Assembly (NCBI GenBank): GCA_903885375.1
Contig: CAISIK010000081.1
Location: forward strand, 1 to 64,000
Direction of reading: 5' to 3'
From: an uncultured Pseudomonadota bacterium
GTDB taxonomy: Bacteria; Myxococcota_A; UBA796; SXON01
DNA: 64,000 bases
Below, piece by piece: positions 265 through 45,537 of the stretch. Numbering within the stretch: the stretch's first letter is position 1; each line of letters starts with the position of its first letter. The notes below the pieces were generated by a model. It was not told the origin of the DNA and did not search any database. It saw nothing but the letters and a program-made list of their open reading frames with translations. Position numbers and translations under genes: made by a program.

Positions 265-1596
265 TCAGCCCGACATCATCACGTCGAGGAGGCCGCCTTC
301 GAGGCTCTCGTCGCCGAAGCGGGTGATGGGCTCGCCGGTGGCGGTGCGGTGGCCGGTGGCGGTGAGGAGCGTGGCGAGGACGCGGTCGTGCGTGACGTTG
401 CCGGCATCGACGTAGCGGCCCTGGCAGAGGGTGCCATCCCCGCCGCCCGCGATGACCCAGGGAATCTGGTCGTAGCGGTGCGAGCCGGTGGACACGTCGC
501 TCACGAAGACCACCACGGAGCGGTCGAGCATGTCGGAATCGTCGAGCCGGTCGAGGAGGTAGCGGAAGACGCCGAGGTGGAGCCGGTTCACGCCGAGGTG
601 CATCTCCTGCTGGGAGGCGAACTGGCCGAGCTTGGCCTCATCGATCGAGCGGTGGCTCACACTGTGGTAGGCCGGACAAATCTGGCCGTTGATGGTGTAG
701 TTGGCGTTGTCGAGCCGGTCGCCAATCTGGAGGGTGACGGCGGAGGCCCTGCCGCTCCGCAGCACGAGCGCGATGAGGTCGCAATGGAGGCGGGCCACGT
801 CGAGGGAGAAGGCGTCGAGCGTGGAGTTGCCGGCGGAATCCTCCATGGCCGCCTCGATCTCCTCGGAGAGGCGGGCGGTCATCAGCTCGAAGTCGCGCAC
901 GCTGTCGGTGTGCTGCTCCAGGCGCACCTTGTCGGCGGCGGAGAGGCGGGGGCTGGCCGAGAGCGCCGCGAGCCGGGCGAGGATGAGCTCGTTCACGGGC
1001 GCGCGCATCTCGCTGCCGCCATCGGCCCCGGTGAGCCGACGGTAGACCGACCACGGGTCGCTCTCGGCGCCGCGGAGCTGCATCGGGCCGCGGTAGGAGA
1101 GCACCTCTTCGCCGTAGTCATCCCGCCGGCCGGCGTAGAGCGTGAGCGGCTCGCCGTTGTTCACGTTGCTCTGGCGGGCCACCCAGTTGTCGATGGACTC
1201 GCCGAGGGCGTAGGTCATCACCGAGTCGGTGGATGGGCTGACCCGCGCGGCCGTGAGGAGCTGGTTGCCGCCCCCGGAGTGGGCCTCATGGGTGGCGGCG
1301 AAGGGGAAGCGCGTGCCGCGCACGAGCAGGAGCCGGTCGGCGTAGTCGGCCAGCTCGGAGATGCCGCGGTCGGCATCCCGCTCGCGGAGGAGCGACGACG
1401 TGAGCGCGCCGAGCTGGGTGGGCCAGAAGCGCTCGGGCTCCTCCCCATCGGCCTGCGCCACCCCGCTCGCGGCCCGGACCACCACCAGCGGATGCCCCGA
1501 CGCCTCGCCCGCGCAGCCCTGGAGCGAGCCGAGAAACGGGAGGGGGAGCGCGGCTGCGGAAGCCCGCAAGAAGTCGCGCCGGGTGGCGGATCGCAT
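265..1596 (-). CDS. DUF1552 family secreted protein, Tat signal
   Basis: A 443-residue protein that opens with a twin-arginine-type signal (TRRDFLRASAAALPLPFLG) and continues with the DUF1552 pattern: an early segment on a rejected or resolved ceremony-like GTRF motif, THEAHSGGGN near residue 105, and a C-terminal part resembling alkaline phosphatase/sulfatase-like folds (VVVFVSDVSTGSHRYDQIPWVIAGG). The family function is unknown; it is common in Planctomycetes and Myxococcota, nearly always beside a DUF1592-type protein, as here, where the partner starts divergently 36 bp away. Export through Tat suggests that it folds, perhaps with a metal, before leaving the cytoplasm. The ATG at 1596 is chosen because the signal follows at once. 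Identification as DUF1552 is firm; the function is not inferred. Confidence 0.88.
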   Translation of the reverse strand: MRSATRRDFLRASAAALPLPFLGSLQGCAGEASGHPLVVVRAASGVAQADGEEPERFWPTQLGALTSSLLRERDADRGISELADYADRLLLVRGTRFPFAATHEAHSGGGNQLLTAARVSPSTDSVMTYALGESIDNWVARQSNVNNGEPLTLYAGRRDDYGEEVLSYRGPMQLRGAESDPWSVYRRLTGADGGSEMRAPVNELILARLAALSASPRLSAADKVRLEQHTDSVRDFELMTARLSEEIEAAMEDSAGNSTLDAFSLDVARLHCDLIALVLRSGRASAVTLQIGDRLDNANYTINGQICPAYHSVSHRSIDEAKLGQFASQQEMHLGVNRLHLGVFRYLLDRLDDSDMLDRSVVVFVSDVSTGSHRYDQIPWVIAGGGDGTLCQGRYVDAGNVTHDRVLATLLTATGHRTATGEPITRFGDESLEGGLLDVMMSG

Positions 1597-1616
1597 GGCA
1601 GAGTCTAACCGTCACC

Positions 1617-1624
1617 GATTAGGT
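1617..1624 (+). promoter_or_regulatory. putative -10 box for a leaderless GTG start
   Basis: GATTAGGT ends 7 nt before the GTG at 1632. An in-frame TAG at 1620-1622 lies inside it, so the gene cannot start upstream. The distance matches a -10 element whose transcript would begin at or next to the start codon. No good -35 box was seen. Confidence 0.35.
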
Positions 1625-1631
1625 CCGCGCC

Positions 1632-3230
1632 GTGCTGCTCTTCCTCACGCTCGCCTGCGAGTCGGCCGAAGCCCCGGCATCGGCTTCGCCCGCGCGGCTC
1701 GTGCGGCTCACCCACAGCCAGTGGGAGCGCACCACCGCCGATCTGCTCGGCCTCACCGAGCCCACCGGCTTCTCCGAAGGCTTCGTCCCCGACGCCACCA
1801 CCTCCACCTTCGACAACGACGCCGAAGGTCTCACGGTGAGCGACACGCTCTGGCAGCAGTACCAGTCCGCCGCCGAGAGCCTCGCCGAGCGCGTGGTGGG
1901 CGACAACGCGCTGTACGCCGCGCTGGTGCCCACGCCCCGCACCTCGCCCGAGGCCGGCTGGGCCGAGCGGGATGCCTGGCTGGCCAGCTTCGGTCGCCGT
2001 GCGTTTCGTCGCCCGCTCACCGGCGCCGAACTGGAGTCGTTCAAGGCCATCTTCGAGCGGGGCGCCGCCGCCTACGACTCGGGCGATGCTTTCACGGATG
2101 GCGTGCGCGCCAGCCTCGTGGCCTTCCTGCAGTCGCCCGACTTCGTGTACCGGGTGGAGGGGCTCGATGCCGCGGTCCACCAGACCGAGCTCGACGACTG
2201 GGCGCTCGCCGCCCGCCTCTCCTACGGGCTGTGGAACACCATGCCCGACGAGGCCCTGTTCGAAGCCGCCGAGGCAGGCTTCACGGAGGCCACCCTCGCG
2301 GAGCAGGTGGCGCGCCTGCTTGCCGCGCCCGAAGCGCACGACACGTTCCTGGACCTGCACCGGCAGCTCCTCCACGTGGACAGCTACCGCAACATCCCGC
2401 GCGAGTTCGTTTCGTACGAGGACTACTCGCTCACCGAGTCGGGCGCGATGGAGGCTGAGGTGTACGCCTTCACCGACCACGTGGTCTTCGGGGGCGGCAC
2501 CATCGCCGACCTCTTCACCAGCCGGGAAACCTTCGTGGATGCCCAGGTGGCCGCCCGGTACGGCATCGAGGGTGTGGAGGGCGTGGGCGCCGACGCACTC
2601 ACCCCCGTGCAGCTCGACCCCACGCAGCGCGCCGGCCTCCTCACGATGCCGGGGTTCCTGAAGTGGGAGGCGAGCGAAACGGAGGAGAACCTCATCCGGC
2701 GCGGCGCCTTCGTGAACGAGACCTTCCTGTGCGCCAGCCTGCCGCCCCCCCCCTCCACGGCCACGCCCCTGCCCGAGCCGGAGCCGGGCGGCTCGCTGCG
2801 CGAGCGGATCGAGGCGCACACCTCGGGCTGCGGCGGCAGCTGCCACAACGAGCTCATCAACCCCGTCGGCTACGCCTTCGGCAACTACGACGAGAACGGC
2901 GAGTGGCAGACCTACGAGGTGCCGGCGCTGGTGGGCGGCCTCTTCGGCGATGCCCCCATCGATGCGAGCGCGGCGTACACCTTCGAGGATGGCGTGGTGC
3001 CGTTCCAGAACGCGGTGGAGCTGGCCGAGGTGATGGCCGCCCGCCCGGAGGTGCACCGCTGTTACGCCTCGCACCTCCTCGCCTGGCTCGAATCGCGCAC
3101 CCCCGACGGCGAGGATGAGGCCCGCATAGAAGCGCTGGCCGAGGCCTCGATGGGCGGGCGCTCCGTGCTGGGGCTCGTGAACGACATCATCACGGACCCG
3201 GCTTTTCGGGGGCTCGCGGCCACGGAGTGA
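1632..3230 (+). CDS. DUF1592/DUF1588 family secreted lipoprotein
   Basis: A 532-residue protein of the DUF1587-DUF1595-DUF1592-DUF1588-DUF1585 family. By eye the order is DUF1587 around 20-85 (LTHSQWERTTADLLGL), DUF1595 around 115-175 (FGRRAFRRPLTGAELESF), DUF1592 around 190-320, DUF1588 around 330-430 and DUF1585 to the end. DUF1588 usually holds a CxxCH haem-like motif; here the sequence is CGGSCH, i.e. CxxxCH. The signal is very short: nine residues up to Cys9 (LTLAC), with no positive charge. The GTG start is forced by an in-frame TAG at 1620-1622. It lies divergently next to its usual DUF1552 partner. The biochemical role of the family is unknown. Confidence 0.88.
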   Translation: MLLFLTLACESAEAPASASPARLVRLTHSQWERTTADLLGLTEPTGFSEGFVPDATTSTFDNDAEGLTVSDTLWQQYQSAAESLAERVVGDNALYAALVPTPRTSPEAGWAERDAWLASFGRRAFRRPLTGAELESFKAIFERGAAAYDSGDAFTDGVRASLVAFLQSPDFVYRVEGLDAAVHQTELDDWALAARLSYGLWNTMPDEALFEAAEAGFTEATLAEQVARLLAAPEAHDTFLDLHRQLLHVDSYRNIPREFVSYEDYSLTESGAMEAEVYAFTDHVVFGGGTIADLFTSRETFVDAQVAARYGIEGVEGVGADALTPVQLDPTQRAGLLTMPGFLKWEASETEENLIRRGAFVNETFLCASLPPPPSTATPLPEPEPGGSLRERIEAHTSGCGGSCHNELINPVGYAFGNYDENGEWQTYEVPALVGGLFGDAPIDASAAYTFEDGVVPFQNAVELAEVMAARPEVHRCYASHLLAWLESRTPDGEDEARIEALAEASMGGRSVLGLVNDIITDPAFRGLAATE

Positions 3231-3275
3231 GTGCGGGGGGCGCCCCCGGATTACGCCCCCGGGCGAGGAGCCAAC

Positions 3276-4502
3276 GTGAGCCAATCCCCCCGTGCCGCCC
3301 AGGGAGCCACCTTCGCAGTGGTGGTGCTCACCTCCATGAACCTGCTGAACTACCTCGACCGCTTCGTGCCGAGCGCGGTGAAGGAGCTCTTCAAGGAGGA
3401 CCTCGGGCTCACCGACGCGCAGACGAGCTGGCCGCTGACCGCGTTCATCGTGGTCTACATGATCACGAGCCCCATGTTCGGGGCGCTCGCCGACCGCTGG
3501 CCGCGCAAGGTGCTCATCGCGGGTGGCGTGGCGTTGTGGTCGGTCGCCACCGCGGGCGCCGCGCTGGCCACGGGGTTCTGGAGCTTCCTGTTCGCCCGCT
3601 CGCTCGTGGGCGTGGGCGAGGCGGCGTACGCCACCCTCGCGCCACCCCTCCTCTCCGACTTCTTCCCGCCGGAGCGGCGCAACCGCGTGCTCACCTTCTT
3701 CTACGTGGCCATCCCCGTGGGCGCGGCGCTGGGCTTCGGCCTCGGGGGGTTCATCGGCAAGGAGCTCGGCTGGCGCGCCGCGTTCCTCATCTGCGGCCTC
3801 CCGGGCCTGCTCGCCGCCGGGCTCGCGCTGCGCATCCAGGACCCGGGCCGCGGCGCCTGGGATGCCGCCCCCACCGGGAAGACGGCGAACTGGGCCGAGG
3901 CGCTCCGGCTCCTCGCCGCCAACCCCCGCTTCGTCTACGCCGTGGCGGGCTACACGGCGGTCACCTGGGCGGCCGGCGGCATGGCGGACTGGTTCCCGAC
4001 CTACCTCGTGCGCAACCGCGGCATGAGCCTCGCGGAGGCCGGCACGCTCATCGGCGCCGTGACCGTGGCCGGCGGCCTCGGCGGCACCGCCATGGGCGGC
4101 TGGCTGGCCGACCGCCTCGCCGGCCGCACGCGGAACGCCTACCTCGCGCTCTCCGCCGTCTCGATGGTGCCCGCCGCCGTGTTCGCCGGCCTCGCCCTCG
4201 CCGTGCCCGCCGGGCCCGGCGTGGCCGTTTGCATGTTCCTCTCGCAGTTCTTCCTGTGGTTCTACAACGGGCCCATCAACACGATCATCGCCAACGCCGT
4301 GGCCCCGGAGCTCCGCGCCCGCGCCTTCGCCGTGTCGATCTTCGCCATCCACATCCTCGGCGATGCGGTGTCGCCCACCATCATCGGGGCGATCTCCGAC
4401 AGCTCCGAGCTCCTCTACGGCGTGGCGCTCGTGCCGGTCTTCATGGCCATCGGCGCGGTGATCTGGGCCATCGGCTGGCGTCGGCTGCCGGAGCCCGCCT
4501 GA
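3276..4502 (+). CDS. MFS transporter, Spinster-like
   Basis: A major facilitator of about 408 residues and 12 predicted membrane segments. The first helix carries MNLLNYLDRFVPSAV, followed by GALADRWPRK between helices 2 and 3 (the MFS motif A region), RSLVGVGEAAYATLAPP in helix 4 and DFFPPERRNRVL. This combination is typical of the Spns/Spinster subfamily, whose animal members export sphingosine-phosphate or lysolipids; the bacterial substrate is unknown. The reading frame is open from GTG 3231, but the GTG at 3276 is preferred because GAGGAG sits 5 nt before it and the MFS homology begins soon after. It is followed after 16 bp by a lysophospholipid-type acyltransferase, so a role in lysolipid traffic is possible but is inference. 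Confidence 0.85.
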   Translation: MSQSPRAAQGATFAVVVLTSMNLLNYLDRFVPSAVKELFKEDLGLTDAQTSWPLTAFIVVYMITSPMFGALADRWPRKVLIAGGVALWSVATAGAALATGFWSFLFARSLVGVGEAAYATLAPPLLSDFFPPERRNRVLTFFYVAIPVGAALGFGLGGFIGKELGWRAAFLICGLPGLLAAGLALRIQDPGRGAWDAAPTGKTANWAEALRLLAANPRFVYAVAGYTAVTWAAGGMADWFPTYLVRNRGMSLAEAGTLIGAVTVAGGLGGTAMGGWLADRLAGRTRNAYLALSAVSMVPAAVFAGLALAVPAGPGVAVCMFLSQFFLWFYNGPINTIIANAVAPELRARAFAVSIFAIHILGDAVSPTIIGAISDSSELLYGVALVPVFMAIGAVIWAIGWRRLPEPA

Positions 4503-4518: not shown

Positions 4519-5802
4519 ATGTCCGCGTTGATCCGCGCCTGGGCCCTCGGGCTGGTGCGCCTGTTCTACCCCGTCCGCATCGTGTCGGGCCGCGAGCGGA
4601 TTCCGCAGGCGGGGCCGGTGATCGTGGTGGCGAACCACCCGAACGGCCTGCTCGACCCGCTGCTGGTGCGCCTCGCCGTGGGCCAGCCCGTGGCCTTCCT
4701 CGCCAAGAGCACGTTCTGGCAGAACCCCTTCTTCCGGGTGTGCATGGAGGCCTTCTCGGCCCTGCCCGCCTACCGCGCGCACGAGGCCGACACCTCGCGC
4801 AACGAGGAGACCTTCGCCGCCGCCGCGGCGCTCCTGCGCGCCGGCGGCTGGATGGCGCTGTTTCCGGAGGGCAAGTCGCACGACGCCACCACGCTGCAGC
4901 CGCTGAAGACGGGCGCCGCGCGGATCGCGTTCGCCGCCGTCTCTGCGGGCGCGGCGGTGCAGGTGCTCCCCGTGGGGCTCCTGTACGCGGACAAGGAGAT
5001 CTTCCGGTCCGCGGTGGTGGTGGCGGTGGGCGAGCCCTTCGCCGTGACGCCGGGTGCGCCGGAGGACCGCGACGCCGTACGCGCGCTCACGGACCAGATC
5101 GCCGAGCGCCTCGCCGACGTGGTGCTCCAGGCGGAGGACGCCACCCTCTGGCGCGCTTTCCTCGCCGTGGCCCACTGGACCGGCGCCGCCGACCTCGACG
5201 CCCGCGAGGCCCGCGCGCGCCAGCTCGCCGCGCGCTGGCGCGAGCTCCTCGCCACCGCCCCCGACACCGCCGAGTCGCTGTCCATCACCGTGCGCCGATA
5301 CGCCCGCGCGCTGGAATCGGTGGGCGTGCGCGACCCCTTCACGCTCGAAACCGCCGTGCCGGGCCACGAGCTCCGCGGCCTCGGCGCCCTCGTGCTGCTC
5401 GCGCCCGCGGCGCTCCTCGGTGCGGCGCTGGCCTGGCTGCCCTACCGCGCCGTCCGCCCCGCCGCGATCGCCCTGAGCCGCGGCCACGCCGACATCGTGG
5501 GCACGATCAAGCTCCTGCTCGGCTTCGTGGTGCTCGCCGCCACGTACTGCGCCTGGGCGGCGCTCGCGGCCGGTCTCGCGTGGGGCGCCGGCGCGCCGGC
5601 CGCGGCGGGCGCCGCCCTCGGCGCGCTCGTCCTTGGCCCCCTCTCCGGCCTCGCCGCCCTCCGCTTCGACGAGCGCCTCGCCCTGCGCCGGGAGGCGCTC
5701 CACGGCATCTCCCTCCGCCTCTTCCGCCCCCGCCTCACCCTCGCGCTGGCCGAACGTCGTCAGGAGCTCACCCGCGCGGTGCTGGCGGCGCTCGAGGGGT
5801 GA
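4519..5802 (+). CDS. PlsC-like 1-acyl-glycerol-phosphate acyltransferase family protein
   Basis: A 427-residue glycerolipid acyltransferase. NHPNGLLDP near residue 35 is the catalytic His/Asp block in the spacing seen in the Gpt2/Sct1-like branch, and FPEGKSHD near residue 115 is the substrate-binding block. The C-terminal half adds hydrophobic segments (around 285-310 and 330-365) that simple PlsC proteins lack. The reaction should be transfer of an acyl chain to glycerol-3-phosphate or lysophosphatidate at the inner membrane. It lies 16 bp after the Spinster-like transporter and is probably cotranscribed with it. Whether it acts at sn-1 or sn-2 cannot be read from the sequence. Confidence 0.83.
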   Translation: MSALIRAWALGLVRLFYPVRIVSGRERIPQAGPVIVVANHPNGLLDPLLVRLAVGQPVAFLAKSTFWQNPFFRVCMEAFSALPAYRAHEADTSRNEETFAAAAALLRAGGWMALFPEGKSHDATTLQPLKTGAARIAFAAVSAGAAVQVLPVGLLYADKEIFRSAVVVAVGEPFAVTPGAPEDRDAVRALTDQIAERLADVVLQAEDATLWRAFLAVAHWTGAADLDAREARARQLAARWRELLATAPDTAESLSITVRRYARALESVGVRDPFTLETAVPGHELRGLGALVLLAPAALLGAALAWLPYRAVRPAAIALSRGHADIVGTIKLLLGFVVLAATYCAWAALAAGLAWGAGAPAAAGAALGALVLGPLSGLAALRFDERLALRREALHGISLRLFRPRLTLALAERRQELTRAVLAALEG

Positions 5803-5806
5803 CGGC

Positions 5807-5814
5807 GCTACCTT
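5807..5814 (+). promoter_or_regulatory. putative -10 box for a leaderless GTG start
   Basis: GCTACCTT ends exactly 6 nt before the GTG at 5821 and lies just after the stop of the preceding acyltransferase gene. There is no Shine-Dalgarno other than the spacer GCGGGG. The same box and spacing occur before 25432, 30410, 54516 and, on the minus strand, 60555. Confidence 0.4.
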
Positions 5815-5820
5815 GCGGGG

Positions 5821-7323
5821 GTGCTCCTCCTCTGCGCCCTCGTTCACGCCGGCGAAGTCTCGATCCCGCTGACCGGCACGGTTCCCGACGACGGCCTCGA
5901 TCACTTCTTCCTCCCTTTCGAGGTGCCGGCCGGCATCGAGGAGCTCGAGGTGCGGCACGCGGCCGGCGAAGGCGACAACGTGCTCGACTGGGGGCTCGAC
6001 GGCCCCGACGGCTTCGTGGGCTGGGGCGGCGGCAACACCGAGCCCGCCGTGGTGAACGCCGAGGCGGCCAGCCGCAGCTACCTCCCCACGCCGCTCACGC
6101 CGGGCACGTGGTCGGTGGTCGTGGGCAAGGCGGGTATCGTGGAGCCCCCGGGCACGTACGCGGTGGAGGTGATCCTGCGTGACGAGGCCACGCTCCCCGC
6201 GCAGCCCGAGCGCCAGCCCTACACCGCCGCCCCCGCCCTCCGCACCGGCCCCGGCTGGTTCGCGGGCGACCTCCACGTGCACAGCCGCGAGAGCGGCGAC
6301 GCCTCGCCCACCATCGACGAGATCGCCACCTTCGCCGACAGCGTCGGCCTCGACTTCGTGGTGTTCAGCGACCACAACACCATCTCGCAGAACGAGTTCC
6401 TGGTGGATGCGCAGGGGCGGTTCCCCGACCTCCTCCTCCTGCCCGGCATCGAGTTCACCTCCTACTCCGGGCACGCCGGCGCCACCGGGGCCACCCGCTG
6501 GGTGGACCACCGGCTCGGCCAGCCGGGCGCAACCATGGAGGCCGCGGCCGCCGCCATCCACGCGCAGGAGGCCCTCCTCGTGGTGAACCACCCCACCCTC
6601 CAGCTCGGTGACGCCTGCATCGGCTGCGCCTGGGAGGCCGAGCTCGCCCCCGAGGAGATCGACGCCGTCGAGGTGCTCACCGGCGGCTGGTCGCCGGTGG
6701 GGCAGCTCTTCTTCGCAGGCACGGTGGGGCTCTGGGAGTCCTGGCTTGATGAAGGCGCGCGCATCGCGGCGGTGGGCGGCAGCGACGATCACACCGGCGG
6801 GGCCGCGCCCGGCAGCCGGGACAGCCCGCTCGGCAGCCCCACCACGATGGTGTGGGCCGAGGAGCTCTCGGCGGCAGCGCTCCTCGACGGGATGCGCGCG
6901 GGGCTCACGGTCGTAAAACTCCAGGGCCCGGACGACCCCATGGTGGAGCTGTGGCCCTCCACGGGGAGCCGCACGCTGGCCGACACGCCCGACGACATCC
7001 CCTGGACGGCCACCGTGACGGGGGGCACGGGCGCCGTTCTACAGTGGGTGGTGGATGGGGAGACGGCAGGCAGCGCGGTGGTGGACGCCGATCCCTTCCT
7101 CGACACCCGCAGCTTCGATGCATCGGCCAGCGGCTTGCGCGTTCGCGTGGTGCTCCTCGTGGACGGGGCGGAGCGCGTGGTGACGTCGTACCGGTGGCTG
7201 GAGGATGCCGCCCAGCCAACCGAAGAGGGGTGCGGGTGCGGCGGCGGCGATGAGGCGGGCGCCGGCGTGCTCGGGGCGGCGCTCCTGGCCTGGCGCCGCC
7301 GGCGCCTCGCGAGGGGGCGGTAG
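5821..7323 (+). CDS. PHP-domain phosphoesterase with MYXO-CTERM-like sorting tail
   Basis: A 500-residue secreted protein. After a short uncharged signal (LLLCALVHAG) there is a beta-rich domain to about residue 140, then a PHP metal-dependent hydrolase domain: GDLHVHS (first metal His pair), VVFSDHN, LLPGIEFT, LVVNHP and GGSDDH supply the expected metal ligands. After another beta-rich segment the protein ends with GCGCGGGDE, a hydrophobic stretch and WRRRRLARGR. This is the Cys-rich, hydrophobic, Arg-rich layout of the MYXO-CTERM surface-sorting tag of Myxococcota. Substrates of secreted PHP proteins of this kind are not known. The stop codon TAG touches a 26-bp repeat that also covers the hisD 3' end 5.5 kb away. 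Confidence 0.85.
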   Translation: MLLLCALVHAGEVSIPLTGTVPDDGLDHFFLPFEVPAGIEELEVRHAAGEGDNVLDWGLDGPDGFVGWGGGNTEPAVVNAEAASRSYLPTPLTPGTWSVVVGKAGIVEPPGTYAVEVILRDEATLPAQPERQPYTAAPALRTGPGWFAGDLHVHSRESGDASPTIDEIATFADSVGLDFVVFSDHNTISQNEFLVDAQGRFPDLLLLPGIEFTSYSGHAGATGATRWVDHRLGQPGATMEAAAAAIHAQEALLVVNHPTLQLGDACIGCAWEAELAPEEIDAVEVLTGGWSPVGQLFFAGTVGLWESWLDEGARIAAVGGSDDHTGGAAPGSRDSPLGSPTTMVWAEELSAAALLDGMRAGLTVVKLQGPDDPMVELWPSTGSRTLADTPDDIPWTATVTGGTGAVLQWVVDGETAGSAVVDADPFLDTRSFDASASGLRVRVVLLVDGAERVVTSYRWLEDAAQPTEEGCGCGGGDEAGAGVLGAALLAWRRRRLARGR

Positions 7324-7348
7324 GGCGCCGTTCGCTCGCGATCAGCCG
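7323..7348. repeat. 26-bp direct repeat, left copy (candidate attachment site)
   Basis: The 26 bp beginning GGGCGCCGTTCGCTCGCGAT recur perfectly and in the same orientation at 12850-12875. This copy begins on the last base of the PHP gene stop codon. The other copy covers the hisD stop codon. A perfect repeat at a gene 3' end on both sides of an accessory segment is the pattern left by site-specific integration, but no integrase was found. Confidence 0.7.
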
Positions 7349-9311
7349 ACCGGAAGGCGCCGGCGACCGCGCGATCGGCGAGCTCTCCGCCGATCAGGTG
7401 CGCTATCGCCACCGGGACGGTGAGCTGGTTCAGGTGCTCGTGGAGATCGCCGATGTGGCGCTGCTCCACGCTACACATCAGCACCCACGGCCCCCCCTCG
7501 ACCGCCGAGCAGGCCGATGCCCCCTTCTCGGCGGGGGCCTTCTCCTCCGCCTCTCCCTCGGTGGGGGGCGGCGCCGGCCCGTCCGCGCCATCGCAGTCCT
7601 GATCGACCCCGTCGGCGAGCAGGTCGGGGGCCCCCGGGTAGGACGCAGCATCCTCGTCGTCGCAATCCCCGTCCGGCACCCCGGTCCCGGCCTCGCCGAG
7701 GTCATCGCAGTCGAGGTCCACGCTCTCGATGAGCCAATTTTCCGGCCGGTACCCGTCGGCGTCCTCATCGCGGTAGCAGGTCTCCCGATCGTCGCAGTCC
7801 TGGTCGACTCCGTCGTCCACGGCCTCGTCCGCCCGTGGCGAGCGTGCGGGGTCGGCGTCGTCGCAGTCCCAGACTGTGTAGGTCAGGGCCTCGCCGACGC
7901 CCGCGCAGTCCTCCGTGGAAAACACCACCGCCGCATCCCTCGGCGCGTAGCCGTCCCCATCGCCGTCGGTGTCCCCGCCGTTGATCACCGCAAGTCCGAA
8001 CAGTTCCAGCCCTTCGTGGGGGCACTCGAGGATGGTCACGCCCGACTCGGTGAGTCCACGCGGCCCACCACGGTAGAAGGCGACGTTTCCGTCAGTGGCG
8101 CCCAAAGACCCGCCCGTCGCCGCGTCCGGGTACCCGTCGGCATCGACGTCACCCACGTCGAAGAGGTGGAGTGCAGCCCCGTAAGCGAACGCATCAAAGG
8201 TCTTGGCGAAGGTTCCGGCGCCGTCAGCTGACCTTCGTGTCCAGGCCCACGCAGGCGAGGGCCACCATGTCCACGGGTGCGTCGAGGCCGAGGTCGGCCC
8301 TCCCGGGACGGTACTGCAGCATGCCGCGGTCGTTGTCTCGGCCGCACAAGTCGGCCAGGCCATCGCCGTTGACATCGCCGAGCCCGCTCGGACGCCAGGC
8401 GTCCGACCCGGTGAGCAGCGTCGCGTTCCGTTGAGGTCCCGCGCTCGACCCGGCGTTCACGACCATGTCCAACGAGCAGGTGTCCATGCGAATCACGTCG
8501 TCCACACCATCTCCGTTGAGGTCCCCGCCGAACACGGCCTCGGCGCACACCCCGAAGGTTCCCAGCAATTGCGGCGTGTCGGCGTCGTCGAAGAGCACCG
8601 TGAACGGGCGTTCGCTGCCCCCCACCACGATCGGGATGACCACCTCGTCGTTTCCGTCCCCATCGAAGTCTCCCGTGAGCGCATGATCAACCGGACTGAA
8701 GTCGCCGTCCCCCACGCCGTCCACGAAGGGGATCTCCTCGAGGCCCGACCCCGTGTCCACCTTGGCTTACGCCAGCCAGTTGCCAAGGACGAACAAGTCG
8801 AGCCGGCCATCCCCGTTGAAGTCCGGGGCCGCGTGCGAGTACACATGCCCGATCATCACCCCCTCGCTGTACTCGGCGTACACCGGGTCCACCAGGACCG
8901 GGAACGTCGCGCCTTCGGTATCTACCCGGAGTCGAACGACCTCTCCAACCACCGTCCAGGACAGCGGTAGGGCGTGCCCGGCTGCGTCGTAGGCGTGGAG
9001 TTGGGGTAGGTCCAGCGTTGGTCTCCCCGACGCACCCGCGCACCGCCTTTGGCCAGCTCCACCGTGGCGCCATCGAACGCGATCTCGATCTCCACCTCCG
9101 ACGCTGCCTCCTCCACAATCCAGGTCTGGATGTCGCGCGCGGCCGTGCGCTCCACGCGCTCGTACACCGGACCCGTTCCCTGCACGGCCACGTCCACGCA
9201 CTGCCCGTCGAGGGAAACGATGACCCGCGGCTCGGGGCGGGAGGAGAGGGCCGGCGCAGGAGCGGCCGACGCGGCAGCGGGAAGCCCGACGAGCACGAGC
9301 AGCGCGCGCAT
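7349..9311 (-). pseudogene. broken FG-GAP/VCBS protein with MopE-like Asp-rich motifs
   Basis: A minus-strand gene begins at ATG 9311 with a good signal peptide (MRALLVLVGLPAAASA) and can be followed to about 7470, but not in one frame. There is a frame change near 9030, an in-frame TAA at 8767-8769 (after VLGNWLA) and another frame change near 8230. Across the breaks the protein continues sensibly: repeated D-x-D/N-x-D-G FG-GAP loops (DFNGDGRLDLF, DVNGDGLADLC, DVDADGYPD), then MopE-like DCDD motifs (VWDCDDADPARSP, DGDCDDEDAASYPGAPD). No stop codon ends the last frame; it runs on through the 26-bp repeat into the antisense of the PHP gene, so the original C terminus is missing. Decay of an imported gene, or several sequencing errors, would both explain it. 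Confidence 0.7.
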
Positions 9312-9562
9312 CCCGACGGGTGGGCGGCTCGGCCTGGGGGTGACTCGGTTGGCGCGGAGCATGCGGGATGCCTCGGGTCGGGGGGTTGCCCTTGTACTTG
9401 CCGCCAGGGACAACGAACGATCGACCCCGACCCCCGACAACTTTCTGACGACTCCGCGAGGCCCGGCGAGGCCGTGCACCCGCGGCGGCACCCGGTGAGA
9501 GATGGGTGAGAGGTTCGCGAACCCGCGTACGCAGCTACAGTCGGGGCCACTTGGAGTTGCCC

Positions 9563-11185
9563 ATGTCACCGACCCGTCCCCTCTCCCCCGCCCTCGCCCT
9601 CCTCCTCGCGGGTGGCCTGCTCCTCCCCGCCCGTGCGGAGGCCCTGAACATCTTCGTGGCCAAGCTCGACTTCCAAACCACCAGCGAGGACCTGCAAACC
9701 TTCCAGGTCACGCTCGACGGAGGGGAGCAGGGCGCAACCGCGGTGGAGGTGCGGGTGAGCTCCGACGGCGGGAGCGAAGACCTCGAGCTGACGGAGTCCA
9801 ACGCCTGGTTGCACGGCAGCGTCACGCTCGCCGCCCTCCCCGCCAAGGACACGACGCTCACGCTCACGCTCCTCGATGAGGTCAGCGCTTCGTGGATGAC
9901 CTTCTCGGGCACGCTCACGGCGGAAGGCGTGGTCACGTTCGATGCCGGCAAGGCGAGCGGCGGCTGCGTGTCGGACTCCAAGGCGGGCTGCACGGCGGAG
10001 GAGCCCGATGTGGAGGTGCTCGCGTCGGCGCTCTACCCGTCCGGCAAGGGCTACGTGCTCAGCCTCGACCTCGCGGGCGCGGACACCTACGCGGTGGCCT
10101 ACGCGGTGGTGGCGGTGACGGGCGGGGAGAAGGCGGAGGTCGGCTTCGACGCGGTGGGGTCCGTGTGGACGGCGGAGGCCACCCTCGCGCACACCGGTGT
10201 GATCGACGTGAAGGCGAAGGCGCGCGATGAGGCGGGCCGGACGCTCGCCAACGTGCACGCAGAGCTGGAAGAGCCGTGGGCCGACGATGGCGCTGGCGTG
10301 GTGGTCCTCTCCGCGGGCAAGGGCACCGGCCTCGCGATCTCGCGCTGGGATGACGACTACAAGGGGACGACGCCGTGGTCGTGGACGGGCAGCCGCGAGA
10401 TGGTCACCGTCGTCTCGGATGGCTGGACGACGACCAGCTACCCGACGCACGCGGAGGTGGAGCTCGGAGGCAGCGCCACCGCCACGATCCCCGCGAACAG
10501 CTACCACCGGCATGGGATTTCGGGCGGAAACTTGCAGATCACCGACAACGCCCGGTTCAGCATCACGGACTCTTCGATCTCCATCAGCGGCGGCAACCTC
10601 AACTTCAAGCCCCAGAGCCCCACGGACCTCGGCTCGTCCCAATGCTCGTCGGGCTACTGTGTGGCCATCGTGGAGGCCGAGAAGGGCTACGAGCTCTCGG
10701 TGAGCACCTACGGCACCACGCCCGCCAAGCTCCCCGCCAAGCAGGACTTCGACCTCGTCCTCTACGACAAGTCGGGGGCCAAGGTCGCGTCCGAGCGGGC
10801 GGCCGTCACCTTCGACCCGGCCGTCACCGCCGTGTTCGTGAGCGCGGTGGACGTGTCGGGCGATCCCATTGGCGCCGATGCGTCCGGCTCCGTACGGCTG
10901 CTCGCGCCCTCCACGAAGAAGGGCAAGTCGGGCGTCCAGGACGTGCTCACGAGCGGGACCTTCTTCGGCTCGCTCTCCCGCGATCAGGACGGCGACCTCG
11001 GCCTCGGCGGCTACGGCACCGACGAGGCGGCCACCGCCGAGAGCACCGCCAGCATCGACCTCGGCGAGCCGGTGCTGTGCGGCGGCGCAGGCTGCGACGG
11101 CGACTGGACTCCGCCGGTCGTCCTCTTCGGGCGCGGCGGAAAGGTCACCAAGATCGTCGTGAGCTCGGGTGGGTTGGACTATTAG
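9563..11185 (+). CDS. secreted protein of unknown function
   Basis: A 540-residue protein with a clear signal peptide (MSPTRPLSPALALLLAGGLL, cleavage near ARAEA). The mature part is rich in Gly, Ser, Thr and Asp and looks all-beta. There are Cys pairs near residues 134-143 and close to the C terminus. I recognise no catalytic motif, no MYXO-CTERM tail and no family. The ATG at 9563 is preferred over upstream in-frame starts because TTGGAG precedes it by 6 nt and the signal starts there; TACAGT at 9536-9541 could be the -10 box. It faces away from the broken FG-GAP gene and lies in the middle of the candidate island, so it is probably accessory. Confidence 0.6.
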   Translation: MSPTRPLSPALALLLAGGLLLPARAEALNIFVAKLDFQTTSEDLQTFQVTLDGGEQGATAVEVRVSSDGGSEDLELTESNAWLHGSVTLAALPAKDTTLTLTLLDEVSASWMTFSGTLTAEGVVTFDAGKASGGCVSDSKAGCTAEEPDVEVLASALYPSGKGYVLSLDLAGADTYAVAYAVVAVTGGEKAEVGFDAVGSVWTAEATLAHTGVIDVKAKARDEAGRTLANVHAELEEPWADDGAGVVVLSAGKGTGLAISRWDDDYKGTTPWSWTGSREMVTVVSDGWTTTSYPTHAEVELGGSATATIPANSYHRHGISGGNLQITDNARFSITDSSISISGGNLNFKPQSPTDLGSSQCSSGYCVAIVEAEKGYELSVSTYGTTPAKLPAKQDFDLVLYDKSGAKVASERAAVTFDPAVTAVFVSAVDVSGDPIGADASGSVRLLAPSTKKGKSGVQDVLTSGTFFGSLSRDQDGDLGLGGYGTDEAATAESTASIDLGEPVLCGGAGCDGDWTPPVVLFGRGGKVTKIVVSSGGLDY

Positions 11186-11302
11186 CGAAGCGATGCCCTC
11201 GCGCCTCCGAGGCCGTCGATCATGGGGTGCGCGCGTTGGTCCGGGCGGGCCTGACGGGCGCGGTCGGAGCCGGGGTCGGATGATGGCCACGACCGCCGAA
11301 AA

Positions 11303-12295
11303 TCACGCGCCGGCGACCGCTCGGTCCACCGGCGAGAAATCGAGATAGCGGCTTCGGAACCTGGGCACCCAATCCGCGTTGAGGACGTTCTGGAGCGCGT
11401 CGACGCAAGCCTCCAGGGTCAGGCGCTGAAACGGCACGGCCCCCGACCGTTCGCTCGCAACCAGGTGGTCGGAATAGGCACGGGCCACCCCCGCAACTTC
11501 CGCGTTCCCGGCCGGGTGGAGGAGTACGCTGATCCCCGTGTCGTAGGCGGAGCCCGGGTGCCGGCGGAGCGACCAGGCGAGGAGGTGATCGAGCCAGAGC
11601 TGCCAGACCCCTCGGGACCACAGCGAGGAGGCCTGCGGATCGGCGAACGCTCCGCTCTCCAACGCCAGCTCGCGATAGCGGAGTCGCAGCTGCGCCGGAA
11701 GCTTGTCGCGCATGTTCTCATGGTACTTGACCTCGATCGCCACGAAACCCGATCCGCCTGCGGGCGTGGTGTGCACGAGAAAGACGTCGAAGGCGCTGCC
11801 GTTGTCGAGGAAGGCCGGGCTCCAGCGCCCCGGCGAGTGCTCGAACCGGACGTCGACAACGCGGTCCACGCGCCCCGGCCAGAGCCGACGAGCAAACCGC
11901 GTGGCCGCTTTCAGGTCGAGCGCGAGTTCCCCGAAGAGGTTGAAGCACATCGGCTGACTCGACAGGAGGTCGGAGTGCATGCGTGTTGCGTCGATCTTGG
12001 CGCGCGGCTCTGCGAGCCTACCGTCGGCGTAGGCCGCGGCGAGTTCTGCAATACGAGGAGTCAGGAAGTTCCAGCCGGCCGCCTGCGCCTCCGGCATCGC
12101 GAGGCGAGATCCGAGCGGCGTGTCGTCGACGTTGACCCCCATGGGCCAGCCGTGCTCCTCGCGCCACAGTGCGGCTCGCAGGCGTGCCCGTCGGCGGAAG
12201 TCAGTGCCGTCGAATCCCCACTTGTCGGCGCGGTGGCGGGATGCGACTTCACGAAGACGGTCGGCGGTGGTCATCGCGCCCAATGTGACGCCCAT
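11303..12295 (-). CDS. PGN_0703-family putative restriction endonuclease (PD-(D/E)XK)
   Basis: A 330-residue protein whose middle carries SDLLSSQPMCFNLFGELA, a hallmark of the PGN_0703 family of putative restriction endonucleases. It is followed by VDVRFEHSPGRWSPAFL, then NGSAFDVFLVH and GFVAIEVKYHENMR. The Asp of SAFDV and the Glu/Lys of IEVKYHE form a D...ExK nuclease core. The family is thought to act in restriction or defence; DNA cleavage by this member is inferred. The start could be ATG 12295 or ATG 12274. The first follows the stop of the AbiEi-like remnant by only 3 nt, which suggests translational coupling to a former upstream gene. No methyltransferase partner lies in the window. 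Confidence 0.72.
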   Translation of the reverse strand: MGVTLGAMTTADRLREVASRHRADKWGFDGTDFRRRARLRAALWREEHGWPMGVNVDDTPLGSRLAMPEAQAAGWNFLTPRIAELAAAYADGRLAEPRAKIDATRMHSDLLSSQPMCFNLFGELALDLKAATRFARRLWPGRVDRVVDVRFEHSPGRWSPAFLDNGSAFDVFLVHTTPAGGSGFVAIEVKYHENMRDKLPAQLRLRYRELALESGAFADPQASSLWSRGVWQLWLDHLLAWSLRRHPGSAYDTGISVLLHPAGNAEVAGVARAYSDHLVASERSGAVPFQRLTLEACVDALQNVLNADWVPRFRSRYLDFSPVDRAVAGA

Positions 12296-12298
12296 GCC

Positions 12299-12549
12299 TC
12301 ACGCTGTCCAAGCGGAGTCAGGCCCCCCCGCCCGAGCGACCTCCCGAGCACCCGGGTAGCGCAGCATCTCCGGCAGCCAGGTGTCGTTCGGCGGCGCCCC
12401 TCGCCGCGGTGCGCCAGCGGCACGATGACGTAGAACCCCCGCCCGGGCGACAGCAGCCCCCGCCGCTTCGCCAGCAGGAGTGCCGCATGCTTGGGTGCGG
12501 GCATGGATCCCCCGAGCACGGCGAGCGCTTCCTCGCGGGTGAAGGTCAG
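12299..12549 (-). pseudogene. truncated, frameshifted AbiEi-like antitoxin
   Basis: The minus strand reads FTREEALAVLGGS, then ALLLAKRRGLLSPGRGFYVIV, then PLAHRGEG. The pattern matches the N-terminal domain of AbiEi-type antitoxins (type IV toxin-antitoxin regulators), where an RGFYVIVP block is very typical. The frame then changes at a GGGG run near 12405-12410, and in the new frame it goes on as APPNDTWLPEMLRYPGA, as expected for the family, before stopping at 12299. Only about 83 codons remain of a protein that is usually 200-300 residues long. No AbiEii toxin gene follows; the nuclease gene starts 3 nt later. Recognition is by motif only. Confidence 0.5.
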
Positions 12550-12586
12550 GCGCCCCCGCCCTGGCGGCCGTCTACGAAGTCGGCCT

Positions 12587-12631
12587 GATGCATCACCTAT
12601 GCATCACCGATGTATCAGCCGATGCGTCGCC
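12587..12631. repeat. four degenerate 11-12 bp tandem repeats
   Basis: GATGCATCACC, TATGCATCACC, GATGTATCAGCC and GATGCGTCGCC follow each other without gaps. The first two contain the palindrome TGATGCATCA or a near match. They lie just upstream of the AbiEi-like remnant on the minus strand, where an autoregulated antitoxin gene could have its operator. Four units is too few and too degenerate for CRISPR. Confidence 0.5.
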
Positions 12632-12679
12632 GAACCTCGGCCAACAACTGCTCTGCCAGCACCTCGGTGGACGCCTGAA

Positions 12680-12840
12680 TCACCGCCTCGGACCCGACGT
12701 GCGCCGCTGCTCGCGCAGCCATCCTCGGCCGTTGGCGACGTCCCCGCACCGAAGGTACGCCAGAAACTCCCGCTCCACATGGCGCGGGAGCAACCGAGCG
12801 TGCTGCGTCAGCTGACCGGCATGGCCGGGCGACCAGGCGA
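12680..12840 (-). mobile_element. possible remnant of an IS91-like transposase N terminus
   Basis: One minus-strand frame reads LLPRHVEREFLAYLRCGDVA, which resembles the start of the zinc-binding N-terminal domain of IS91/IS801-type transposases (P.hV.rEf..yLrCG). The frame is open for about 53 codons and stops at 12680; nothing of the rest of the transposase follows. The fragment directly abuts the right copy of the 26-bp repeat. A short chance match cannot be ruled out. Confidence 0.25.
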
Positions 12841-12849
12841 GCGTGCACG

Positions 12850-12875
12850 GGGCGCCGTTCGCTCGCGATCAGCCG
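12850..12875. repeat. 26-bp direct repeat, right copy over the hisD stop
   Basis: Perfect copy of the repeat at 7323-7348. Bases 12869-12871 are the hisD stop codon, so this copy is probably the original host sequence and the left one the duplicate. Duplication of a gene 3' end is usual for integrase-type insertion. Confidence 0.7.
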
Positions 12876-14137
12876 CCGTCGGCGCCTCGGAGCCGGTGCT
12901 CCGCGCTCCGGGCGTGGGCCTCGAGGCCTTCGAGCCGCGCCAGACGGGCGGCGTCATCGATCACGCCCGAGAGGTCGGCCCCGCCGGCCATGGCGAGCCA
13001 GGTGCGCACCCGCAGGAAGTGCAGCACGTTGAGCCCGCCGGTGAAGCGCGCGGCGGTGCCGGTGGGGAGCACGTGGTTGGGGCCCACGCCGTAATCGCCG
13101 AAGACCTCGGCCGAGGCGCCGCCGATGAAGAGGCCCCCGTAGTGCCGCAGCGCGCGGGCGTGCCCGGCGGCGTCGGCGGTGAGCACCTCGAGGTGCTCGG
13201 GCGCGAGCCTGTCGCACACGGCCACCGCCTCGGCGGCATCGGCGCACACCACCGCAAAGCCGTTCGCCACGGCTGCCTCGGCCACCTCGCGCGTGGGGAG
13301 CGTGGCGAGCTGCTCGCGCAGCGCGGCATCCACGCGCGCAGGCAGCGTGGCATCCCACGTCACGAGGATGGGGCGGGCGTCGGGATCGTGCTCGGCCTGG
13401 CCGAGGAGGTCGGCGGCGATGCGCCCGGGGTCGGCGCTGGCGTCGGCCAGCACCACCAGCTCGCTTGGCCCCGCGAGCATGTCGATGCCTACCTGCCCCG
13501 CCACCAGCTGCTTGGCCGCGGTGACCCAACGGTTGCCGGGGCCCACGATCACGTCCATCCGCGGCACGGGGCCGGCGCCGTACGCCATCGCGGCGATGGC
13601 GTGTGCGCCCCCCACCGCGAGCACCGCGTCCGCGCCCGCCACCCAGGCCGCCGCGAGCGTGACCCGCGCGGCGCGGGGGCTCGCCACCCACACCTCGCCC
13701 ACGCCGGCGGCACGGGCGGTGAGCGCCGTCATGAGCACGCTGGAGGGCAAGGGGTAGCGCCCGCCGGGGGCGTAGCAGCCCGCACGGTCCACGGGGGAGA
13801 GGTTGTGCCCGGCGCGGCCGCCGGGCACGGCCACGTCGATGTCGGTGAAGGCGGCGCGCTGGGCCTCCGCGAAGGCGCGGATGCGCCCGGCGGTGCGCTG
13901 CAGGAGCTCGAGGTCGGCGGGGGGCAGGGAGCGCGCCGCGGCGGCCAGCTCCTCGCGCCCGATCACGAGCGGCGCGCCGGCCGGGAGGTCGCCGAGGCGC
14001 TCGGCGTGGGCGCGCAGCGCGGCCTCACCGCCCACGCGCACCTCCTCCACGATGGTGCGGGCGGCAGCGAGCGTGGGTGCATCCACGGCGGAAAAGTTGG
14101 CGGCCTCGACGGCGAGGGGCGAAACCCGGCGGAGCAT
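12869..14137 (-). CDS. hisD: histidinol dehydrogenase
   Basis: A 422-residue HisD: last two steps of histidine synthesis, NAD-dependent oxidation of histidinol to histidine. Visible blocks include GHNLSPVDRAGCYAPGGRYP, VIVGPGNRWVTAAK, DMLAGPSELVVLAD, LLGQAEHDPDA (zinc-ligand region), LAPEHLEVLT with the catalytic Glu-His pair, and GDYGVGPNHVLPT. The ATG at 14137 lies 8 nt after the stop of the hisA-IE fusion, making hisD the last gene of the operon. The stop codon lies in the 26-bp repeat that borders the candidate island. The length is normal for the family. Confidence 0.95.
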   Translation of the reverse strand: MLRRVSPLAVEAANFSAVDAPTLAAARTIVEEVRVGGEAALRAHAERLGDLPAGAPLVIGREELAAAARSLPPADLELLQRTAGRIRAFAEAQRAAFTDIDVAVPGGRAGHNLSPVDRAGCYAPGGRYPLPSSVLMTALTARAAGVGEVWVASPRAARVTLAAAWVAGADAVLAVGGAHAIAAMAYGAGPVPRMDVIVGPGNRWVTAAKQLVAGQVGIDMLAGPSELVVLADASADPGRIAADLLGQAEHDPDARPILVTWDATLPARVDAALREQLATLPTREVAEAAVANGFAVVCADAAEAVAVCDRLAPEHLEVLTADAAGHARALRHYGGLFIGGASAEVFGDYGVGPNHVLPTGTAARFTGGLNVLHFLRVRTWLAMAGGADLSGVIDDAARLARLEGLEAHARSAEHRLRGADGG

Positions 14138-14145
14138 GGGGAACC

Positions 14146-15408
14146 TCAGGGGGTGATCTTCGCGTGGCCAGGACGCCGCGTGAGCGCGCGCGCCCGCCGG
14201 TCGAGCACGGCCTCCACGTCGGCGAGCGACCGGCCGGCCCGGGTGAGCGCGACGAGGGAGAAGTAGAGCGTGTCGGCGGCCTCGGCCACCACGTGATCGG
14301 GGTCGGTGGCGTCGGCCAGCTCCCCCGCCTCTTCGAGGAGCTTCGCGCGCAACAGCGCAGGGTCGTCGAGGAGGCGGCGCGAGTAGCTGCCGTCGGGCGC
14401 CGACTTTACCCGCTCCGCGAGCGTGTGCATCAGCGCGTCGAGGCCGCGCGCGGGGCCCCAGCAGGTGGTGCAGCCGAGGTGGCAGAAGCCCGGCCCGTGC
14501 TGGCGCACGGTGAAGCGCAGGGCGTCGCGATCGCAATCGGCCTCGACCCGCAGGAGCTCCTGGGTGTGGCCGCTCTCCAGCCCCTTCTCCCAGAGCCCGC
14601 GCCGCCGCGACCAGTACACCCCGCGGCCCGTGTCCAGGGCACGCGCGAGGCTCTCCCGGTTCGACCAGCACAGTCCGAGCGCGGTGCCGCGCTCGTCGAC
14701 CACCACGGTGGCCCACAGGCCATCGGGACGGTCCGACACCAGCGGACCGGCGAACGCATCGACCAGCGCGAGCCGGCCCGTGTAGAGCGCCATGCCCACC
14801 TGCGCGTCGGCGCCCAGCCGATCGAGCTCCGCCACCTCCTCGGCCGTGGTCACGCCGCCCGCGAAGGTGATGCGCGACGAGCCGGCCGCCGCGATCAGGG
14901 GCTGCACGCGGTCCATGGCGGTGCCGCCAAGCCGGCCCTCCTTCTCCACGAAGGTGATGAGGAAGGCCGCCACGTACGGGGAGAGCTCGCGGATGCGGTC
15001 CTCGATGCGGGCGCCGGTGCGGGTGGTCCAGCCGTGGGTGACGACCTCGCCATCGCGGGCGTCGAGCGCGGCCACGAGCCGTTCGCGCGGGAGCCGCCCG
15101 AGCAGCTCCGGGGTTGCGGCCGTGCCGAGGATGATGCGGGCGGCGCCGGCATCGAGCCAGCGGCGGGCGGTGGCTTCGTCGCGGATGCCGCCGCCCACGC
15201 GGCAGTCGTGCCGGGTGCAGAGGTCTTCGATGAGCGCCGCGTTGCTCCCGCGCCCGAGAGCCGCGTCGAGGTCGATGACGGCGATCTCGCCGACCCGACC
15301 GAAGCGGGCGGCGATGGGGCGGGGGTCGCCCGCTTCGAGCGCGAGCGTTTCGCCGCCCACGAGCTGCACCGTCTGGCCGCCCTGGAGGTCGATGGAGGGG
15401 ACGATCAT
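14146..15408 (-). CDS. hisA: HisA-HisI-HisE fusion (ProFAR isomerase / PRA-CH / PRA-PH)
   Basis: A 420-residue protein joining three histidine enzymes. Residues 1 to about 230 are the HisA barrel ([42 protein letters not shown]). Residues about 235-325 are HisI (DGLWATVVVD, ARALDTGRGVYWSRRR, GLESGHTQE, EADCDRDAL, FCHLGCTTC), with the three zinc Cys in the expected places. The last roughly 95 residues are HisE (LLEEAGELADA, VVAEAADTLYFSLVAL). HisIE fusions are common; adding HisA in front is unusual. The product would carry out steps 2, 3 and 4 of the pathway. ATG 15408 overlaps the hisF stop as ATGA. The order in the protein does not follow the reaction order (E, I, A). Confidence 0.92.
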   Translation of the reverse strand: MIVPSIDLQGGQTVQLVGGETLALEAGDPRPIAARFGRVGEIAVIDLDAALGRGSNAALIEDLCTRHDCRVGGGIRDEATARRWLDAGAARIILGTAATPELLGRLPRERLVAALDARDGEVVTHGWTTRTGARIEDRIRELSPYVAAFLITFVEKEGRLGGTAMDRVQPLIAAAGSSRITFAGGVTTAEEVAELDRLGADAQVGMALYTGRLALVDAFAGPLVSDRPDGLWATVVVDERGTALGLCWSNRESLARALDTGRGVYWSRRRGLWEKGLESGHTQELLRVEADCDRDALRFTVRQHGPGFCHLGCTTCWGPARGLDALMHTLAERVKSAPDGSYSRRLLDDPALLRAKLLEEAGELADATDPDHVVAEAADTLYFSLVALTRAGRSLADVEAVLDRRARALTRRPGHAKITP

Positions 15409-44013: not shown

Positions 44014-44747
44014 GCGCGCTCGCCTGGCTCGGCGGACTCGCGTATTTTGCGTGGGACTGGTTCCGCTCCAGCCTCCGGGCTCGCCCCCCGGCAGGGCGTA
44101 CCATCGAGGAGGCCTACCGCATCGGCGTGCAGTCCCTGCCCGTGCTGCTCGTGATCAGCGTTTTCGTGGGCACAAACCTCGCGCTTCAGGGCTACAAGGC
44201 CTTCACCCCGCTCGGCGGGCAGCGACTCGTGGGCATGTTCGTGGCGATGGCCGGCGTGCGGGAGCTGGCGCCGCTCATCGCCGCCGCCATGGTGGCCGCC
44301 AAGGCCGGCACCGAGATGGCCTCGCAGATCGCCGTGATGCGCACCCGCGAGCAGATCGACGCGCTCGAGGTCATGGCGGTGAACCCCTACTGGTTCCTCG
44401 TCACCCCACGGCTGTACGGCATCCTGCTGGTGATGCCGGCGCTCAGCCTCATCGCGGTGAGCGTGACCGTCCTCGCCTCGCTCGGCGTGAGCGTGTTCCA
44501 ACTTGGCATGAACCCCGCCACGTTCATCGAATTCGCCCGCAGCAGCATCAACATGGGCGACATCGTCGCGGGAAGCCTCAAGGCGGTCATCTTCGCGATC
44601 ATCATTTGTTTCGTGAGTTGTTACTGCGGTTTCGTGTCGGAAAAGGGTCCGGAGGGCGTGGGGCGTGCCACCAACCGGGCCGTGGTGGTCAGTTGCATCA
44701 CCTGCGTGATTTTCAACACCCTGGTCTCGCAGGTGCTCTATGGATGA
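44010..44747 (+). CDS. mlaE: MlaE-type ABC permease, second of two
   Basis: A 245-residue MlaE-family permease distinct from the one just upstream. LPVLLVISVFVGTNLALQG, AGVRELAPLIAAAMVAAKAG and QIAVMRTREQIDALEVMAVN are the matching blocks. It starts at ATG 44010 in the stop of the first permease and ends 8 nt inside the ATPase gene. In E. coli MlaE is a homodimer; two adjacent different copies suggest a heterodimer as with YrbE pairs of mycobacterial Mce loci. Confidence 0.88.
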   Translation: MSALAWLGGLAYFAWDWFRSSLRARPPAGRTIEEAYRIGVQSLPVLLVISVFVGTNLALQGYKAFTPLGGQRLVGMFVAMAGVRELAPLIAAAMVAAKAGTEMASQIAVMRTREQIDALEVMAVNPYWFLVTPRLYGILLVMPALSLIAVSVTVLASLGVSVFQLGMNPATFIEFARSSINMGDIVAGSLKAVIFAIIICFVSCYCGFVSEKGPEGVGRATNRAVVVSCITCVIFNTLVSQVLYG

Positions 44748-45537
44748 ACTCGAGCCTCCCATCCGGCTGGTGAACGTACACAAACGGTTCGGCGCGCTCA
44801 CCGTGCTCGATGGCGTCAGCTTCGACATTCCCCGGGGCAGAACCACCGCCATCATCGGCCCCTCCGGCACCGGGAAGAGCGTGATGCTCAAGCACATCGT
44901 CGGCCTCATCCGGCCCGACGAGGGCGAGGTGCGGGTGTTTGGGACGGACATGGCCCGGGCGGGCGAGGACAAGGTCTACGCCGTTCGGAAGCGCCTCGGC
45001 ATGCTGTTCCAGGATGGCGCCCTCTTCGACTCGCTCTCCACCGGCGAAAACATCGAATTCCCCCTGCGCCAGCACCACCCCGAGCTCAGCGCTGAAGAAC
45101 GCCGCGAGCGCGTGGAGGAGGCGCTCGCGATGGTGGAATTGCCCGGCCTCTACGACCGTCCCACCCCTGCCCTCTCCGGCGGCCAACGCAAGCGCGTGGG
45201 CCTCGCCCGCGCCATCATCACCCGCCCCGAGCTGGTGCTGTTCGACGAGCCGAATTCCGGCCTCGACCCGATGACCTCCGATGCCATCGACGCCCTGATC
45301 GGCCACCTCAAGGCCACCCTCGGCGTCACCTTCGTGGTGATTTCGCACGACATCGTGGGCACCGTGAACGTGGCCGACCACATCGCCATGCTCTACCAGG
45401 GCAAGCTCGTTGCCTGGGGCTCCACCGCGGAGGTCACCCGCTCGGAGCACCCCATCGTGCGCCGCTTCCTCGGCCGCAACCTGATCCTGCCCGAGCCGGG
45501 CGGCGAAGGCGTGGCGTCGTTGCCCCGGATGGGGTGA
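44740..45537 (+). CDS. mlaF: MlaF-like ABC ATPase
   Basis: A 265-residue ATPase of the Mla/Mce transport family. Walker A is GPSGTGKS (40-47), the signature LSGGQRKRVGLARA (from 145), Walker B LVLFDE (165-170), and the His switch VISHDIVG. It energises lipid transport together with the two MlaE-type permeases whose genes overlap it. ATG 44740 lies 8 nt before the permease stop. A C-terminal tail of about 30 residues follows the switch region. Confidence 0.93.
   Translation: MDELEPPIRLVNVHKRFGALTVLDGVSFDIPRGRTTAIIGPSGTGKSVMLKHIVGLIRPDEGEVRVFGTDMARAGEDKVYAVRKRLGMLFQDGALFDSLSTGENIEFPLRQHHPELSAEERRERVEEALAMVELPGLYDRPTPALSGGQRKRVGLARAIITRPELVLFDEPNSGLDPMTSDAIDALIGHLKATLGVTFVVISHDIVGTVNVADHIAMLYQGKLVAWGSTAEVTRSEHPIVRRFLGRNLILPEPGGEGVASLPRMG

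Follow-up and report, generated by a model that had tools for sequence, protein, structure and literature searches.

A perfect 26-bp direct repeat encloses a segment of accessory DNA between a PHP-domain gene and hisD, the gene for histidinol dehydrogenase, in the 64-kb stretch analysed here (the window), taken from contig CAISIK010000081.1 (C81) of an uncultured bacterium. The segment is scarred, carrying broken, patchy and fragmentary genes and mobile-element debris, and the PHP-hisD junction that holds it is peculiar to this genome among the genomes compared. Insertion is a plausible explanation. We put at roughly 0.5 the probability that the segment is a lineage-specific insertion into a formerly compact, convergent PHP-hisD junction and that both repeat copies descend from a single junction sequence duplicated when the DNA entered. 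With the left copy beginning at the PHP stop codon and the right copy running 7 bases into hisD, one duplicated junction accounts simply for where the copies lie.

A repeat private to one locus

The two copies are identical, lie on the + strand and are spaced 5527 bp from start to start. No exact direct repeat in the window is longer; the seven that follow measure 18 bp each, and the longest repeats in order-5 Markov simulations (n=40) measured 16-21 bp, below the 26 bp observed. With up to 3 mismatches allowed, we found no third site in the window and none in 100 shuffles. At the same tolerance the whole genome, a draft of 6.01 Mb in 224 contigs that is 90% complete, holds the 26-mer in 2 copies, both at this locus, and a search of 71 genomes of the class, this one among them, found it in none of the other 70. 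An earlier note on this DNA had singled out the repeat as exact and had named scatter of the repetitive extragenic palindromic (REP) type as evidence against an island. Its account of the repeat is borne out, and with these counts a REP-like dispersed repeat is ruled out for the genomes searched.

The note's placement of the repeat at gene ends also holds: the right copy covers the hisD stop codon, the left copy has the final base of the PHP stop codon as its first, and both genes are left whole. The terminal 7 bases of hisD, TCAGCCG, are identical in the relative G014, and G004 has TCAGC; similarity to the window starts there. On this evidence the right copy ends in bases that belong natively to hisD. 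A partial similarity to the repeat at 11447-11474, within the nuclease gene, is probably due to chance.

Broken genes and debris between the copies

The broken and defence-type genes described in the earlier note are present, in the form of an FG-GAP/MopE gene, a PD-(D/E)XK nuclease gene and AbiE-like fragments (Table 1). GC content is 0.70 in 7501-12500, compared with 0.75 on both sides.

Table 1. Features of the segment and its flanking genes, in window coordinates
Feature	Position	Strand	Basis or remark
PHP-domain gene, CehA/McbA-family metallohydrolase, left flank	5821-7323	+	family matches
Left repeat copy	7323-7348	+	begins at the third base of the PHP stop codon (7321-7323)
Sequence between left copy and FG-GAP/MopE gene, ~130 bp	7349-7475		only weak matches
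FG-GAP/MopE gene, broken	7476-9311	-	Pfam FG-GAP and MopE repeats in its pieces
Open reading frame of 559 aa	9506-11185	+	signal-peptide-like start by our reading; no confident family
PD-(D/E)XK nuclease gene, open throughout	11303-12295	-	Pfam PDDEXK_13, E 9.6e-86; REase-ARP
AbiEi-like antitoxin fragment, two frames, both ends missing	12325-12585	-	PADLOC E 8e-4; similarity to contig C48
AbiEii-like nucleotidyltransferase toxin gene, tail	12575-12723	-	protein match 12618-12701
IS91/ISCR-family transposase gene, fragment of N-terminal part	12728-12813	-	protein and DNA matches
Sequence between transposase fragment and right copy, 36 bp	12814-12849		
Right repeat copy	12850-12875	+	last 7 bases (12869-12875) within hisD, stop codon included
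hisD, histidinol dehydrogenase, right flank	12869-14137	-	family matches

At the left edge, the weak matches of 7349-7475 (plus- and minus-strand readings and DNA searches) were set aside as chance. The adjoining FG-GAP/MopE gene has, by our reading of its frames, at least 2 frame changes and one in-frame stop (8767-8769). On the way to the left copy it meets no own stop codon, and the final frame is open as far as 6789. For 6789-8375 NCBIfam returned no family; by eye the gene's tail is like the start of a MYXO-CTERM motif, of which NCBIfam reported none. The 559-residue open reading frame (ORF) that follows has DNA relatives at ~66-70% in G007, G008, G013 and contig C69 of the same genome, among others.

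The nuclease has matches in 12 of the 71 genomes, this one included, at 34-43% identity and several of them partial; the other ten genomes of the genus yielded none. Since PADLOC gave no match for it, its 'defence' role is our inference, and a literature search on REase-ARP found no paper. Another relative with the PDDEXK_13 domain lies at 2826-3779 of locus L188 (G008:C171); in the surrounding 7 kb that were read, the AbiE-like queries matched nothing.

Close to hisD, the remains of a toxin-antitoxin cassette and of a transposase gene lie side by side. The AbiEi-like fragment is similar to a protein of the genome's own contig C48 (76% over 50 residues and 70% over 23) and has no match in Pfam or NCBIfam. 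The AbiEii-like tail reaches 71% over 28 residues and has a longer relative on C48, which itself matches Pfam AbiEii at E 0.013, below the curated cut-off. On that contig (locus L185) the cassette is more complete: it has AbiEi-like and AbiEii-like genes, with a 347-residue gene upstream, although the Pfam scores of the C48 proteins stay under the curated cut-offs. Judged by these similarities, the toxin-antitoxin debris in the window is a decayed relative of the C48 cassette; compared with AbiE (type IV) toxin-antitoxin cassettes, the segment has related AbiEi-like and AbiEii-like fragments and no intact genes. We also considered a tRNA attachment site here. ARAGORN called a tRNA-Ser at 12416-12486, within the AbiEi-like fragment, Rfam returned nothing at gathering score across 5500-15000, and the call is taken as false.

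The transposase fragment matches G019 at 65% over 37 residues, and a DNA match of 86% spans 86 bp. Library support is weak, with an ISCR model at E 0.038 and no Pfam match, but most of the plasmid matches listed, at E 0.1, are annotated as IS91 family. With IS91/ISCR transposases the segment shares an N-terminal fragment, without a complete gene; there is no recognised element end, and similarity at the DNA level is confined to the fragment. Other IS91-family transposase matches lie near the ends of contigs C191 (55-156) and C46 (6-104) of this genome, and given these positions IS91-type elements may break the assembly.

Elsewhere in the window, Pfam searches (E 1e-5) of 20 other ORFs left 6 without a family; the rest matched enzymes, transporters, FG-GAP and other domains, and neither a transposase nor an integrase was found among the 20. 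Their sole defence-named match is a secondary AAA_21 hit of an ABC transporter at 44740-45537. At 265-3230 lie adjoining genes, one with DUF1552 and one with DUF1587/1592/1588/1595/1585.

hisD and PHP loci in related genomes

We found a hisD match in 10 of the 22 genomes of the family, this one included, with identities of 81-85% in G014, G004, G017 and G005, 64% in G009 and 41-44% in four others. The gene is thus patchy in the family and falls into two identity groups (64-100% and 41-44%); six genomes given as >90% complete (G003, G007, G008, G019, G020 and G021) have no match, a pattern of possible loss or replacement of histidine synthesis. In the five closest relatives, DNA similarity spans the his cluster and stops within 40 bases of the hisD stop codon, at window position 12869 for G014 and G004, 12892 for G017, 12900 for G005 and 12908 for G009. 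Beyond hisD, these five show no DNA similarity to one another or to the segment. The gene that comes next encodes a MopE-motif protein in G014 and G004; in G017 it has no Pfam family, in G005 its product is an AI-2E transporter, and in G009 it is a GDT1 transporter. Content shared after hisD, which the earlier note had held would tell against insertion, was therefore not seen in the five relatives read.

Good PHP relatives were found only in G001 (58%) and G009 (50%), and over the 14-15 kb read at those loci DNA similarity to the window is limited to the PHP gene. None of 80 hisD loci from public genomes has a PHP gene beside it at E 1e-3, in flanks of up to 10 kb that are shorter for many loci. 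The family has relatives of the MFS and acyltransferase genes that stand to the left of PHP, and the 10 kb after hisD in the relatives holds no DNA match to this MFS-acyltransferase-PHP block.

Repeats at hisD ends were sought at 56 of the 80 loci (42 + 14), the remaining 24 having <4 kb of downstream sequence. With a downstream reach of ~4-10 kb, beyond which repeats or islands would be missed, repeats at these other hisD ends measured at most 14 bp and never exceeded the best control probe of their own locus; this control, being the best of several probes, is lenient. The five relatives that were read further have hisD-end repeats of 10-14 bp (G010, G013, G015 and G016, with divergent hisD, were left out). 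The earlier note's proposal to look for the core at other hisD ends thus brought up nothing comparable at the ends tested.

How the segment may have arisen

Under the insertion we favour, the ancestral junction would have been a 26-bp sequence made of 1 base of PHP, an 18-bp spacer and 7 bases of hisD. Incoming DNA would have duplicated this junction and left both genes whole. Duplication could have come about by attachment-site recombination, through a recombinase since lost or acting in trans, or by fill-in and end joining at a staggered break; we consider the first route somewhat more likely. A length of 26 bp exceeds the usual target duplications of DDE transposases. Later decay would have cut down the toxin-antitoxin cassette, reduced the IS91-type transposase to a fragment and broken the FG-GAP/MopE gene.

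Several observations weigh against such an insertion. Control probes at 3 of the 56 other hisD loci hold repeats of 38 bp (L162), 32 bp (L122) and 30 bp (L138); going by these probes, repeats this long occur in genomes now and then. Neither an empty nor a filled PHP-hisD junction was seen in any relative, which leaves the ancestral one to inference, and because the PHP-hisD adjacency was found in no relative, the comparison with an empty site has no counterpart. Gene fragments and family-less sequence at both inner edges fit several events as well as one. MopE-motif genes also adjoin hisD in G014 and G004, which we take as chance since such motifs are widespread in the family and the stretches share no DNA similarity. 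The composition is equivocal too: the contrast in GC is weak, since genes at 1-4 kb also have 0.70-0.73; GC at third codon positions (GC3) is 0.83 in the nuclease gene, lower than in most ORFs of the window, but other ORFs have 0.75-0.81; and the 559-residue ORF is host-like, with a GC3 of 0.92 and relatives in the family.

The strong rival is a history of several steps, which we hold to be a real possibility, if short of an even chance. A rearrangement would have joined the his cluster to the MFS-acyltransferase-PHP block, debris would have accrued at the joint, and repair by template switching or end joining would have made the second copy of the 26 bp. Relatives of the MFS or acyltransferase genes lie on contigs other than the hisD contig in G017, G004, G014 and G005, the block has no DNA match in the 10 kb after hisD, and each of the five relatives read has a different sequence following hisD, as such a rearrangement would have it. 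A piecemeal origin would also suit the two edges, the right with its mixed truncated fragments and the left with a gene that lacks its own end. A left copy starting exactly on the PHP stop codon is, however, not something that rearrangement itself predicts, and an insertion could also have come later, into a junction already rearranged.

The earlier note had proposed a more specific form of insertion, in which a tyrosine integrase placed a decayed or mobilised island at the hisD 3' end and the 26 bp served as attachment core. This is a special case within the insertion reading, and in this form we consider it unlikely. The length of the repeat and its placement at a gene 3' end are suggestive, as are the accessory and defence-type cargo, the 7 Phage_integrase matches elsewhere in the genome and the precedent of small integrase-less islands such as that of microcin H47, as far as the available text of its reports goes. 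None of those 7 matches, however, lies on contig C81, in agreement with the note's statement that the element lacks an integrase, and just 7 of the 26 repeat bases lie in hisD. A dyad of the core type does not rise above background in the repeat (its score is reached by 901 of 2000 26-mers taken at random from the window), a 20-bp core of the repeat has no exact match in viral contigs, and the other 56 hisD ends show no such repeat within the reach given above. What survives of the island proposal is a set of accessory genes and mobile debris between the copies of a private repeat; a tyrosine integrase with hisD as its target is not supported by these results. Quite improbable, in our judgement, is a still stronger version, in which the PHP-hisD junction is a true attachment site for a recombinase encoded elsewhere and the segment is a parasitic, integrase-less defence island with the PDDEXK_13 nuclease and 26-bp ends.

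Two further explanations carry very little weight. Transposition of the IS91/ISCR type could have brought the segment, with the transposase fragment 37 bp from the right copy and other copies near the ends of C191 and C46 in its favour, but only a fragment is left, the 26 bp are by eye unlike the sequence upstream of the transposase in five other aligned copies, and to our knowledge IS91-type elements do not make target duplications. An assembly artefact, in which the draft misjoined unrelated pieces here, is similarly hard to credit: the assembly is in many contigs and no relative shares the PHP-hisD adjacency, but the 26-mer occurs only twice in the genome and is shorter than the final assembly k-mers in common use.

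Known islands offer partial likenesses. In the available text of two reports, the E. coli microcin H47 island is a 13-kb element with extensive imperfect direct repeats for which excision and integration were detected, and a later study found that none of the recombination functions tested was needed for the island's excision (PMC3191183, PMC5426353). Like that island so described, the segment is small, carries accessory genes between flanking direct repeats and has no recombinase gene of its own; it differs in its perfect 26-bp repeat and partly broken cargo, and it is known here from sequence alone. Tyrosine-integrase islands with attachment sites at gene 3' ends, for example the SGI1 variants at trmE (PMC8409611, available in part), likewise carry accessory cargo, and the segment has direct repeats with one at a gene 3' end; in contrast to them, it has no integrase match on its contig and hardly any overlap with the gene. 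Among texts available in part, our literature search found no description of an island at hisD, which is no proof that none is in print, and in the accessible text of one paper found hisD serves only as a typing gene.

A working attachment site at this junction, if true, would bring an integrase-less island with a target that is new. As it stands, the segment is one more case in which accessory and defence-type genes have collected and degenerated between housekeeping genes.

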